Source of the DNA: an uncultured Eubacteriales bacterium | GTDB lineage: Bacteria; Bacillota; Clostridia; Monoglobales; Monoglobaceae | Direction of reading: 5' to 3' | Length of the DNA stretch: 64,000 nt | Assembly (NCBI GenBank): GCA_948468535.1 | Contig: CAOKIL010000002.1 | Location: 1 to 64,000 of the forward strand | Shown here: positions 46,392 to 56,250 of the stretch, piece after piece | Numbering within the stretch: the stretch's first letter is position 1 | Layout of the letters: each line of letters opens with the position of its first letter | The notes under the pieces: generated by a model | Database searches by the model: none | The model's input: the letters and a program-made list of their open reading frames with translations, nothing else | What the model was told of the DNA's origin: nothing | Translations under genes and position numbers: made by a program

Positions 46392-46429
46392 GAAATCTCT
46401 CCAATCAACTTTATATCACTTAAAATAAA

Positions 46430-46471
46430 AATTGCTATGTCAAATATTTTACCATATTTGACATAGCAATT
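46430..46471 (-). terminator. Strong terminator hairpin between the 46.5 kb gene and ispG
   Basis: An 18-bp inverted repeat around a 6-nt loop (46430-46447 and 46454-46471), arms containing TTGCTATGTCAAATA. On the minus strand a TTTTTATTTT run follows. Confidence 0.88.
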
Positions 46472-46483
46472 CAAGTACAAAAA

Positions 46484-46792
46484 CTATTTTTTACACTTGG
46501 CTTTTAAAGACTGAAACTTTTCATAATAAATAATTTCAAAAAGTGCAGAAAGAACTCTGCCCTTTGTAATAAGCGTATAATCCGACTTCTCATTATCGCT
46601 ATGATTAACTTCCATTGCGTTATGTAATAACACTTTATTATCATCTAAAAATTGATATTTTAAAATATAATCTGTTTTATTAATTTGTATAGTTGAGATG
46701 TAGGATAAATCAGACGGATTGTATTGTGCGTCTTTAGTCAGTTCTTTTTTAATACTTTGGCAGTTTTTAAATTTAAATTTTCTTGTAATCAT
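46484..46792 (-). CDS. Hypothetical protein, 102 residues
   Basis: Not recognised. Small, basic and lysine-rich (MITRKFKFKNCQSIKKEL ... FQSLKAKCKK), no membrane segment or signal peptide. AAAGGAAG precedes the ATG. It is followed by a strong terminator and preceded by the small-RNA pair s1/N1. The other s/N pair (55.6-56.0 kb) also precedes a small hypothetical gene on the same strand. Confidence 0.6.
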   Translation of the reverse strand: MITRKFKFKNCQSIKKELTKDAQYNPSDLSYISTIQINKTDYILKYQFLDDNKVLLHNAMEVNHSDNEKSDYTLITKGRVLSALFEIIYYEKFQSLKAKCKK

Positions 46793-46834
46793 AAGGTTCT
46801 TCCTTTCTGTTTTAAAATATTTTATTACAGCTGC

Positions 46835-46947
46835 TTGAAAAACCTTTGCATAAGTGGTATAATAATTTTGCGTGGTTTTTTAAGAAGCTGCGATATTCCG
46901 GAAGCAGTATTAATCTTTTGACGAGATTACTGCTTCCTATTTTTTGT
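46835..46947 (+). ncRNA. Candidate small RNA s1 with promoter
   Basis: TTGAAA (46835-46840), 17 nt, TATAAT (46858-46863) predicts a start near 46870. The roughly 78-nt RNA ends in a long hairpin (GGAAGCAGTA 46899-46908 with TACTGCTTCC 46927-46936, inner AATCT/AGATT) and a TATTTTTTGTTTT tail. s2 at 55633-55752 has the same promoter-hairpin-tail plan, and the sequence after the hairpin (TATTTTTTGTTTT, GTTAA, CCCC) matches. Confidence 0.6.
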
Positions 46948-46993
46948 TTTGAGGTTAAACACTGACATCCCCCCTTTTAAAATAACCCCAATA

Positions 46994-47194
46994 TTAAAAA
47001 AGTGCGTTAACAAAGTAACGCACTAAAAAACACATTACTCTAATAGTTGTCACACTAATTATTTCAATCCTAATAAACTAAGAATATCAAAAAATAGAGT
47101 AAGCGTTTTTATCGTATTAAAATAAAACGTTTATAAGGATTAAAATTAAATAATGTGACAAAGCAAGTATATCACACCTTTTTAAGTTTGTAAA
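46994..47194 (-). ncRNA. Structured RNA element N1 with promoter and terminator
   Basis: Minus-strand promoter TTTACA (47194-47189), 17 nt, TATACT (47171-47166). The RNA (about 47159 to 46994) is closed by TTGTCACA (47047-47054) with TGTGACAA (47154-47161). An inner stem pairs AATCCTAATAAAC (47066-47078) with GTTTATAAGGATT (47129-47141). A terminator (GTGCGTTA/TAACGCAC, 47002-47023) has a T-run on the minus strand. Compared with N2 and N3 both stems differ in sequence but keep pairing. No reading frame of note. Confidence 0.7.
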
Positions 47195-47204
47195 CACCAA
47201 ATTT

Positions 47205-47474
47205 TATTTCAAGACCCATTTCTTTCCTACTTGCGGAAAGAAACGGTTCTTGGACTCCAAAGAAAGGCGCTTTGGCTCGCTGAGGTCGCTATCGCTCCAA
47301 GGGCGTGCCCCTAATCGGTTTTTGGCTAACGCCAAAAACAAGGACAGCTTCACAGCCTTAATATTTTTGCACTGCCGTGAATCTTTCAGCAAAGGCATTG
47401 ACGATATTGCCGCCGCGGCTTGGCATGGCGGAATATGGGTTCGGCAATGGTTTCAAAGTCAACGCCTTGATGAA
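47205..47474 (-). repeat. Dispersed repeat R, copy R1
   Basis: About 270 bp, more GC-rich than its surroundings, homologous in reverse orientation to R2 (56000-56250). Shared blocks in order (minus strand here): TTCATCAAGGC, ATTCCGCC, CCGCGGCGGCAAT, ATTCACGG, AGTGCAA, CTTTCTTTGGAG and a terminal hairpin (TTTCTTTCC/GGAAAGAAA). R1 also has the hairpin GTTTTTGGC/GCCAAAAAC (47318-47339). An open frame of 64 codons crosses it but is not supported as a gene. Confidence 0.75.
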
Positions 47475-47486
47475 TTACCCAAAAAC

Positions 47487-47684
47487 TAAAAAATGCGCCA
47501 GCAAAGCTGACGCACAAAAACGCAGCTTTGATTAAATGTTGCGACACATCTCATAAACTTTAAACAGAAAAAAAGAATATGACAAACCAAAGCCTACGTT
47601 TTTTACATTCGTAAACTATTTTTCTGTTTAAATATTAAAGAAATGTCGCAGATATAATATAACATACTTTATTTAGTTTGTAAA
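47487..47684 (-). ncRNA. Structured RNA element N2 with promoter and terminator
   Basis: Promoter TTTACA (47684-47679), 17 nt, TATATT (47661-47656). The RNA (about 47650 to 47487) is closed by TGCGACA (47540-47546) with TGTCGCA (47644-47650). The inner stem is a perfect 14-bp match, TTTAAACAGAAAAA (47559-47572) with TTTTTCTGTTTAAA (47619-47632). The terminator at 47494-47514 (TGCGCCAGC/GCTGACGCA) pairs fully, with a U-G, only as minus-strand RNA. The core around CCTACGTTTTTTAC is shared with N3. Confidence 0.75.
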
Positions 47685-47697
47685 GAAAAATTTTTTC

Positions 47698-47855
47698 TTG
47701 ACATACATCCACGTATGTGGTATTATAATTATAGAAAACCACCCATTCAATTGAACAGGTGGTTACAGCGCAAAATAGCATTAGCTGTTTCCGCAGCGCT
47801 ATTAAATAATCATATCTAACCGTCGCTCGGCTAAGCGGCGGTTATTTCTTTGTTT
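47698..47855 (+). ncRNA. Candidate antitoxin RNA, copy B (orphan), with promoter
   Basis: Promoter TTGACA (47698-47703), 17 nt, TATTAT (47721-47726), start near 47733. The RNA shares with copy A: a TATAGAAA start, hairpin ACCACC/GGTGGT (A has GCCACTC/GAGTGGC), CATTC, ACAGCG, AAATAGC, TGTTTCCGCA and a terminator AACCG...CGGTT followed by ATTTCT. No membrane-peptide gene is left opposite it; its terminator overlaps the end of a truncated RelE-like frame. Its promoter is back-to-back with that of N2. Confidence 0.65.
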
Positions 47856-47916
47856 TAGCATAAATCACTATTTTCTTTGCAATAGACAAAAATTCAACTG
47901 TATACTTTTTATCCAT
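47842..47916 (-). pseudogene. Truncated RelE/ParE-type toxin remnant
   Basis: A 24-residue frame starts at ATG 47916 inside the end of the phd-like gene (8-nt overlap, normal for such operons). It reads MDKKYTVEFLSIAKK, a good match to the N-terminus of RelE/ParE/YoeB-type toxins (KKYTVEFLPIAKKD in many), then IVIYAKTKK and stops at the terminator of antitoxin RNA copy B. A normal toxin has 85-100 residues. The last codons resemble the end of the 20-residue peptide at 40.1 kb (IIIAYIEK), so it may be a recombination joint between two toxin loci. Confidence 0.6.
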
Positions 47917-48175
47917 TCGCAGCTTCCCTCATAGCTTTGAGAACTTCCTGTAATGAAAAACGTTCATTTTTAAGTTCAGATTCCATATCAGATTCCTGAA
48001 GCTTATAATATACTTCACTCTCTAATTGAAGGTTCTCAAACACTTCCATACTCAAAACCACCATGTCGCCAAATCCGTTCTTTGTCAGAAAAACAGGCTG
48101 CTTTGTTTGGTGTACTATTTTTGAAATTTCAGCAAAATTATTTCTCAAATCAGATATCGGTCTAATCATATCCAT
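47909..48175 (-). CDS. Phd/YefM-family antitoxin
   Basis: 88 residues from ATG 48175 (GAGG 8 nt upstream; a GTG 9 nt earlier is less likely). The N-terminal Phd/YefM DNA-binding fold is MIRPISDLRNNFAEISKIV ... QPVFLTKNGFGDMVVLSMEVFE. The C-terminal half is acidic and helical, as in antitoxins that fold over a toxin. A 22-bp palindrome in the promoter suggests autoregulation. The toxin that should follow is only a remnant, so this antitoxin is probably orphaned. Confidence 0.85.
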   Translation of the reverse strand: MDMIRPISDLRNNFAEISKIVHQTKQPVFLTKNGFGDMVVLSMEVFENLQLESEVYYKLQESDMESELKNERFSLQEVLKAMREAANG

Positions 48176-48196
48176 TTTAAGCACCTCATATAGTTA

Positions 48197-48218
48197 TTTT
48201 AGCATAATTATGCTAAAA
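48197..48218. promoter_or_regulatory. Palindromic operator in the phd promoter
   Basis: A perfect 22-bp palindrome with arm TTTTAGCATAA. On the minus strand it fills the spacer of TTGATA-17-TAAAAT and runs into the -10, an ideal place for repression by the antitoxin. Confidence 0.75.
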
Positions 48219-48236
48219 TATCAATACTTTTTGTAT

Positions 48237-48271
48237 AAAAAATCGCGACAAGCCATAAAGACTTGCCGCGA
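48237..48271 (-). terminator. tRNA-Arg terminator
   Basis: On the minus strand CGCGGCAAG pairs with CTTGTCGCG around TCTTTATGG, then a T-run. It is nearly identical to the terminator after tRNA-fMet (55213-55244). Confidence 0.9.
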
Positions 48272-48273
48272 CG

Positions 48274-48350
48274 TGGTGCGCCTGGAGGGATTCGAACCCC
48301 CGACCTAACGGTTCGTAGCCGTTCACTCTATCCAGCTGAGCTACAGGCGC
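48274..48350 (-). tRNA. tRNA-Arg (anticodon ACG)
   Basis: 77 nt with encoded CCA. Acceptor GCGCCTG/CAGGCGC, anticodon loop CTACGAA, T-loop TTCGAAT. Confidence 0.97.
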
Positions 48351-48597
48351 ATATCTTATATTTTTAACTTAATTATTATAACATTAAATTAATATTATTT
48401 CAAGTGATTTATGTAAACTTTTTTCTAAAAAATTTTCACAATAATTTATCTAATATTAACCTTACGTTCATTAAATTTTAACAATATAATGTTATTATAA
48501 TACTGTAAAATTAATACATACAGCAACATACTTATATATAAAAAAGGTATATTGTTAAAATCAAATTATTATTTTTTATAGAAAGGAGTGAAAAATA

Positions 48598-55315: not shown

Positions 55316-55600
55316 TTATTTAATCAAATCTTTTGCAAGCATTAATCCGCAGCGGATTCCTGTTTCCATACATACTCTTTCGTATACATCTGAAAATTCA
55401 AAAATACTGTTCATTATATTTGTAACATCTTTATCATCTTTAAAATATTTTCGCAGTATGTTATTCATTTTCAATGTTGCATCTTCTATCTCTTTATTAT
55501 ATAATCCGTTAGGTTCATCTATTTCTTCTTTACCGTTCAACAAGAACTCTCCGATTTTCCGCAAATTCGCTCTCCTTAATATATCTGATAAATCATCCAT
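55316..55600 (-). CDS. Hypothetical protein, 94 residues
   Basis: Start ATG 55600 with AGGAGG 7 nt upstream; an upstream in-frame TTG lacks a ribosome site. Not clearly recognised. It is helical and charged, ending VCMETGIRCGLMLAKDLIK. That end resembles small hypothetical proteins that end in a 'GFRLG...LM'-type helix, but I do not assign a family. It follows the s2/N3 element pair, as the 102-residue gene at 46.5 kb follows s1/N1. Confidence 0.65.
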   Translation of the reverse strand: MDDLSDILRRANLRKIGEFLLNGKEEIDEPNGLYNKEIEDATLKMNNILRKYFKDDKDVTNIMNSIFEFSDVYERVCMETGIRCGLMLAKDLIK

Positions 55601-55632: not shown

Positions 55633-55752
55633 TTGACAAGAGGAACCTTCCATAGTATAATTAGATTTACGGACAGAGTTCGCTCTTGTCTGGTTTTTGT
55701 TATAGAACGTTGTTAACATTGGTCGTGTGGCAGCGTTCTATTTTTTGTTTTT
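55633..55752 (+). ncRNA. Candidate small RNA s2 with promoter
   Basis: Exact consensus TTGACA-17-TATAAT (55633-55638 and 55656-55661), start near 55668. A first hairpin around a TTCG loop (GACAGAG...CTCTTGTC) is followed by a terminator, ATAGAACG (55702-55709) with CGTTCTAT (55734-55741), and a TTTTTTGTTTTT tail. The terminator tail and the bases after it match s1. The RNA lies on the strand opposite the leader of the 94-residue gene. Confidence 0.65.
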
Positions 55753-55795
55753 GAAGTTAAGCATAAATATTCCCCTCCTTAAAAACCTCAATAAC

Positions 55796-55990
55796 TAAAA
55801 AATGCGCCAGCAAAGCTGACGCACAAAAACGCAGCCTTGATTTAATGTTGCAACACATCTCATAACTTTATTCCATGAAAAAGTATGACAAATCAAAGCC
55901 TACGTTTTTTACAAATCGTAAACTTTTACATGAAATAAATATTAAGATATGTTGCAAATATAATATAACACACTTTTATATTTTTGTAAA
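55796..55990 (-). ncRNA. Structured RNA element N3 with promoter and terminator
   Basis: Promoter TTTACA (55990-55985), 17 nt, TATATT (55967-55962). The RNA (about 55956 to 55796) is closed by TGCAACA (55849-55855) with TGTTGCA (55950-55956), where N2 has GCGACA/TGTCGC. The inner stem pairs TTTATTCCATG (55867-55877) with CATGAAATAAA (55929-55939); the single mismatch becomes a G-U pair only in minus-strand RNA. The core and the terminator (55803-55823) are nearly identical to N2. Confidence 0.75.
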
Positions 55991-55999
55991 GAAAATTTT

Positions 56000-56250
56000 T
56001 TCATCAAGGCTTTACCTTTAAATCAAACGCCGTCCCCTGATTCCGCCTTGCCTACCGCGGCGGCAATGTTGCAAAGCCTTTATGAAAAATTCACGGTAGT
56101 GCAATGATATTTAGGCATAAAAAGCGGTTTGCTTTTTCGAGTTGCTATAGCAACCGAAAAGTAGAGCGATGCACAAACTAAGCGTTTTTCTTTGGAGGTT
56201 CGGAACCATTTCTTTTTCCGAATCGAAAAAAGAAACGGTTCTGAAAATAA
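56000..56250 (+). repeat. Dispersed repeat R, copy R2
   Basis: The counterpart of R1 (47205-47474) in opposite orientation, beginning TTCATCAAGGC immediately beyond the N3 promoter. The terminal hairpin here is TTTCTTTTTC/GAAAAAAGAAA, different in sequence from R1 but still paired. Two short inner hairpins (AAAGC/GCTTT and GTTGC/GCAAC) replace the single hairpin of R1. Confidence 0.75.

Follow-up and report, generated by a model that had tools for sequence, protein, structure and literature searches.

The convergent s and N elements of the window (the whole 64,000-nt stretch of DNA that was analysed) belong to a recurring unit that, in our assessment, probably subjects a small gene, encoded on the minus strand, to control by RNA in two layers. 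Judged by its sequence, N looks like an attenuator-like leader RNA, and s resembles a countertranscript RNA lying opposite the leader of that small gene. Observed directly for this unit are its sequence, layout, recurrence, covariation, and gene neighbourhood, from which the argument below is built.

Layout and recurrence of the s-N unit

The region 46400-48400 is dense in regulatory signals, with 17 promoter-like sites vs. 8.2 +/- 2.6 in shuffles and 7 terminator-like sites vs. 1.3 +/- 1.2. Within it, the convergent pair of small RNA genes s1 and N1 could be located by sequence with promoters, terminators, and layout all in place, as could its repetition as s2/N3 (s2, 55633-55746; N3, 55992-55797), which keeps the s1/N1 arrangement, much as the original prediction had described them (Table 1). 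Read on the minus strand, the unit starts with the N promoter, the N RNA, and its terminator, continues with a mini-ORF in the gap and the region opposite s, and closes with a gene encoding a protein of ~100 aa (A or B). The ribosome-binding site (RBS) and start codon of this minus-strand mini-ORF are what lies between s and N, and were overlooked at first reading; the ~100-aa gene beyond s, present in most copies, had been overlooked as well.

Table 1. Features of the two s-N units and of the solitary N copy, in window coordinates
Feature	Position	Strand	Description
Gene A	46484..46792	-	102 aa; 14 copies in own genome
Promoter of s1	46835..46863	+	TTGAAA (46835)-17-TATAAT (ends 46863)
s1 RNA	46868..46946	+	5' hairpin, terminator hairpin 46900-46937, TATTTTTTG 46938-46946; putative countertranscript to gene A leader
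Mini-ORF, s1-N1 gap	46927..46962	-	AAAAGGGGGG then GTG, VFNLKTKNRKQ*, 11 codons; ends inside s terminator region
N1 RNA	46997..47165	-	long closing stem, loop L, segment X, terminator 47024-47001; 87.9 bits
Promoter of N1	47166..47194	-	TTTACA (47194)-17-TATACT (47166)
N2	47488..47655	-	solitary N, without s or downstream ORF; 151.5 bits
Gene B	55316..55600	-	94 aa; 6 matches in own genome
Promoter of s2	55633..55661	+	TTGACA-17-TATAAT
s2 RNA, B-type	55667..55746	+	two hairpins and terminator
Mini-ORF, s2-N3 gap	55738..55764	-	AAGGAGGGG-ATG, MLNFKNKK*
N3 RNA	55797..55961	-	148.1 bits
Promoter of N3	55962..55992	-	TTTACA and TATATT

Querying positions 46800-47660 against the genome of origin, a 1.8-Mb draft that is 79% complete, returned 81 matches, many of them copies of s, N, or s-N; the s-N unit itself recurs about a dozen times there, far above chance. 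Twenty-three s loci were compiled from this genome, including two truncated by contig ends. The short distance between the two elements, claimed earlier to be conserved, proved so: in 12 of the 23 loci, the terminators of N and s stand 48-57 nt apart, and in a thirteenth (C56b), read by eye, ~50 nt. N lies 177-322 nt from s in three more, and the remainder comprises one locus cut by a contig end, two with a repressor gene instead, and four with neither. Among the genomes searched, the N-s combination was not found outside the genome of origin. In four own-genome loci (L016, L019, L022, and L023), s lacks an adjacent N, and a conserved block, GCGCGCAACTGGGCTAGGCTGTATTCAGTCGC..AATTTGCGACAA, stands ahead of GGGAGGTATTCAATG.

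Other small elements share this neighbourhood. Positions 47384-47477 and 55985-56116 hold an ~90-nt dispersed repeat resembling a MITE or REP, which has terminal inverted repeats, ATTCATCAAGGCTTTG...CAAAGCCTTGATGAAT, and a core, GCCGCGGCGGCAAT; over 20 partial copies of it are scattered through the genome, and in some units it splits N from s. On the minus strand, 47915-48178 encodes a Phd/YefM-type antitoxin (PF02604, E 1.5e-10) with nothing but a short ORF after it; this may be an orphan or a broken type II pair. Convergent with this antitoxin gene is a candidate small RNA (47698-47850, plus strand) with TTGACA-17-TATTAT, an inner hairpin AACCACC...GGTGGTT, and a terminator at 47817-47844, which overlaps a sub-threshold STnc240 match (47760-47853; 33.8 vs. 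55 bits). That match, like the sub-threshold hits of plant microRNA models on N2, was judged to be due to chance or to a mere long hairpin.

Structure and distribution of N

The stems of N fold far below shuffled sequences (z -6.2 to -8.2, four copies), and a consensus of 21 copies has changes on both sides in 14 of 20 pairs. The alignment-based fold missed the upper N stem, along with the 5' hairpin of s, because MAFFT misaligns variable regions. A strict promoter pattern stands ahead of 95/101 N copies vs. 1/101 control windows.

Two alternative pairings stand out: loop L with segment X, as a pseudoknot, and X with the 5' side of the terminator (T5), as an antiterminator. Of 109 N matches, 108 were usable and 101 distinct; across these 101, with kinship among copies uncorrected, cognate duplexes were more stable than permuted ones both for L:X (-16.80 vs. 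-12.89 kcal/mol, z -13.7) and for X:T5 (-16.49 vs. -12.62 kcal/mol, z -13.6), the latter complementarity being open to inflation by the resemblance of the terminator arms to X. The control duplex L:T5 was no better than chance (z +1.6, n = 101). An earlier duplex test on 24 own-genome copies agrees with both pairings, X:T5 being scored there in 21/24 copies, with three lacking a normal terminator left out. Thirty-one class-level copies from other families, taken from outside model building, retained pairing in 99.4% of P1 cells and 92.5% of L:X cells, with 58 both-side changes vs. 14.0 in shuffles, and gave duplex z values of -7.3 and -5.9 (control, -1.0). For X:T5 in these copies, 95.3% of cells were paired vs. 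92.8% in shuffles, and its both-side pairs alone were no better than shuffles (two pairs, reached by 369/500 shuffles). Computed energies for the terminator (-15.3) and antiterminator (-15.6) are nearly equal (n = 108). At the sequence level, N thus carries an intrinsic terminator and a mutually exclusive antiterminator, and it resembles a transcription attenuator because the L:X pseudoknot and X:T5 antiterminator compete, with near-isoenergetic hairpins.

The position of N relative to genes points the same way. Counting only N matches flanked on each side by 300 nt or more (42 in other genomes, 23 in the genome of origin), an RBS plus an ORF of 25 aa or longer that starts 12-40 nt past the N terminator was found in 20/42 cases from other genomes vs. 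1/42 in the mirrored control, and in 19 of those 20 the start codon falls 16-23 nt past the terminator. In the genome of origin, only 2/23 N copies are followed by such an ORF, because the mini-ORF is what follows N there. Among 103 distinct N copies having at least 150 nt of downstream sequence, 53 have a qualifying ORF within 140 nt. In these cases, N stands in sense orientation directly upstream of coding regions. The products encoded downstream include a BspA-type leucine-rich-repeat protein, a MazE/AbrB-like protein with a possible zinc ribbon, and several small orphan proteins, together with weak bPH and S-layer matches. A cysteine-rich small protein family (M..GxELIPGNxGxDCPGNGEH..ECCCDEC) occurs downstream of N in other genomes (L199, L203, and L192), and the own-genome s copy of L016 has a relative of it nearby.

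About half of the N copies have no such ORF, some being tandem and some orphan like N2, so that N may also act as a free small RNA. Taken further, N could be a stand-alone family of trans-acting small RNAs, its closeness to s and to genes incidental, with L and X contacting other RNAs. Tandem arrays in which each N has its own promoter and terminator, and the orphan copies, would fit such a family; however, the clustering of start codons just past the terminator in other genomes and the covarying X:T5 antiterminator fit a cis-acting leader, and we consider the trans-acting alternative unlikely.

N recurs across Clostridia, often in many copies. Its covariance model finds matches in 40/60 relatives at E <= 0.01, with 41 in the genome of origin and 10-29 in 9 of 11 same-genus genomes. 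At E <= 1e-5, N occurs in 75/291 Clostridia-class genomes (copy numbers there are lower bounds), vs. 13/291 matched by the s model, such that N is known without s. No Rfam match at gathering score was obtained for N or s in the window, in 20 N loci, or in 14 N or s loci. In the main texts of the open PMC subset, among them passages of PMC11109978, PMC6429828, PMC8040213, and PMC4485353, neither N nor an s unit with DUF6809 was found described; N may figure among unnamed candidates in supplementary files.

The s RNA, its repressor neighbourhood, and genes A and B

The s RNA is 75-85 nt long, with a two-hairpin fold in the 26 loci that were examined. The TTGAAA of its promoter is invariant across 20 aligned s loci, and the stem of its terminator hairpin (HP2) has both-side changes in 5/10 pairs (20 sequences). 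One locus, L107, has stops in frame and was left out of the structure alignment. In keeping with the original prediction, s does not look like the leader of a longer plus-strand message: it has a terminator at its end, and only the convergent N follows.

The pair's geometry had also been likened to that of paired antisense RNAs. For s, this likeness stands, of the plasmid copy-control countertranscript type; for N as the antisense partner of s, it fails, since the two elements share no overlap and swapped s-N pairs are as complementary as cognate ones. Mutual antisense pairing of s and N was tried and rejected on this count (cognate -37.18 vs. permuted -36.56, p = 0.30, n = 11 pairs).

Outside the genome of origin, a CopG-like ribbon-helix-helix (RHH) gene ends at the s terminator, convergent with s, in 24/26 s loci. 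For this gene, L151, L160, and L177 were scored by eye; the RHH of L169 is decayed, and L162 is a weak match accompanied by an XRE gene. The RHH proteins at s are of the KMGRPTDNPK type, and that of L062 matches the phrog_876 repressor, with Pfam RHH_3 below cut-off. What was detected after RHH-s varied between a member of family A, DUF6809, a B-like gene, and another RHH-s unit; Clostridium minihomine has two RHH-s units, and Anaerobacterium chartisolvens has s with a truncated RHH tail (by eye). The RHH gene is still present in two own-genome copies (C77 and C97). The copies in the window lack this RHH component of a pMV158-type module and have the mini-ORF instead.

Mini-ORFs are present in 17/23 own-genome s loci (two by eye, and one cut by a contig end; the gap or ORF of C56b and C49 was read by eye). 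Each has an RBS and 8-15 codons, encodes a basic peptide (e.g., M[IL]NLKTKNRKQ*, MLNFKNKK*, or MFNLKTKK*), and stops inside the s terminator region. Because these peptides end in lysines as RHH proteins do (DDLKK* and GLNKK*), the stub ORF is suggested to be the tail of a lost repressor gene; a short A-rich similarity is what suggests this descent.

Genes of family A (14 own-genome matches) accompany s1-type units and those of family B (six matches) accompany s2-type units, and locus C39 combines a B-type s with gene A. Among relatives, A occurs in 5/40 genomes and B in 3/40, and the named records with gene A relatives are all Clostridia. A plasmid or phage origin of the unit was rejected on the following searches: the gene A protein was absent from the plasmid, phage, and viral contig collections searched, neither s nor N DNA had a match in the plasmid collection, and a 27-base loop pattern of N had no exact match in viral contigs. 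One unverified faecal phage scaffold, L207 (MT835845.1), has a partial N-like match, 83% identical over 55% of the query.

Could s be a mere convergent promoter-terminator insulator, or a decayed remnant, with no antisense function? The repressor is gone from most own-genome copies and two of the accompanying genes are broken (one in-frame TGA in C49 and one TAA in B_C29), as a remnant might be expected to look; against this, the s promoter and both hairpins are kept across genera with compensating changes, making a functionless s a doubtful prospect. More improbable still, to our minds, is a toxin-antitoxin system, be it type I, with A, B, or the mini-peptide as toxin and s as antitoxin, or a type II pair of RHH and gene A. 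Small multi-copy genes, an antisense RNA opposite a leader, and an RHH gene upstream elsewhere would fit such systems. Yet A and B have no toxin, defence, or phage family match (Pfam, NCBIfam, PADLOC, and PHROG, at set thresholds), the modelled structure of A (pLDDT 78) matched nothing in the PDB at E <= 0.001, and the variety of proteins that RHH-s precedes (A, DUF6809, B-like, or a second RHH) is unlike a fixed toxin-antitoxin pair. Neither a known toxin family nor a hydrophobic toxin peptide was found, the mini-peptides being basic; with respect to these family and domain matches, the earlier statement that no known toxin is present was thus correct.

Proposed mechanism and comparison with known systems

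For the two-layer control cassette favoured here, transcription, attenuation, antisense action, and replacement of a repressor are all predicted from sequence, and would operate as follows. (i) In the first layer, N would be made from its own promoter and act as a transcription attenuator: the L:X pseudoknot would leave the terminator free to form, whereas pairing of X with the terminator's loop and 5' arm would cause antitermination, allowing polymerase to read into the mini-ORF and the gene. (ii) In the second layer, s would be made opposite the leader that separates the mini-ORF from gene A or B, and most likely pairs with this leader, limiting translation of the gene, as RNAII of pMV158 is described to do for repB. 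(iii) In most relatives with s units, the upstream CopG-like RHH protein is probably an autorepressor; in the genome of origin, N and the stub ORF would have come to occupy the repressor's place in most units, the cassette having multiplied.

With N in about a quarter of the sampled Clostridia genomes, in multiple copies and lacking an Rfam match, an unrecognised regulon is indicated, which would include BspA-type and S-layer-like surface proteins as well as many orphan small proteins. The s unit, in turn, suggests that plasmid-type control by repressor plus countertranscript also operates on chromosomes, for non-replication genes. We tentatively entertain a broader possibility, somewhat short of an even chance, that N is a new, widespread class of Clostridia leader RNA, switching between pseudoknot and antiterminator, which in many relatives numbers 10-41 copies per genome and controls surface and small orphan proteins under one common signal, and that in this lineage it displaced a protein repressor, leaving RNA-only two-layer control of a multiplied gene family.

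Riboswitch and attenuator leaders are structured RNAs with a pseudoknot and a choice between terminator and antiterminator. N shares with them its structure, the terminator choice, a start codon ~20 nt after the terminator, and its many copies; it differs in having no Rfam match and in a long stem that is kept in pairing more than in sequence. In attenuators of the pT181/pIP501 type, which are antisense controlled, a segment pairs with either an upstream element or the 5' arm of the terminator. N has the same alternative pairing, but here the competitor is a loop within N itself, and no antisense RNA over N was found. Leader-peptide coupling, as in R1 tap and ColIb-P9 repY, involves a short ORF that precedes the controlled gene and stops inside the target of the antisense RNA; the mini-ORF likewise ends in the putative s target ahead of gene A or B, neither of these being a replication gene.

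The closest counterpart of s is found in pMV158, where the order is copG-RNAII-repB, copG being an RHH repressor gene, and RNAII is transcribed oppositely over the intergenic leader and can pair with the stretch immediately ahead of the repB start signals (PMC4485353). Set against that account, s units at large have the corresponding RHH-s-gene order, and s is, at the sequence level, a countertranscript that has a promoter and terminator of its own and lies opposite an intergenic leader. Relative to the same account, s is longer, with 75-85 nt and two hairpins vs. the 48 nt and single hairpin of RNAII, and the gene downstream of it is A, B, DUF6809, or another rather than a repB-type rolling-circle initiator. 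Unlike the pMV158 module, moreover, s units lie on chromosomal contigs, and in the genome of origin N and the mini-ORF stand where the repressor would be.
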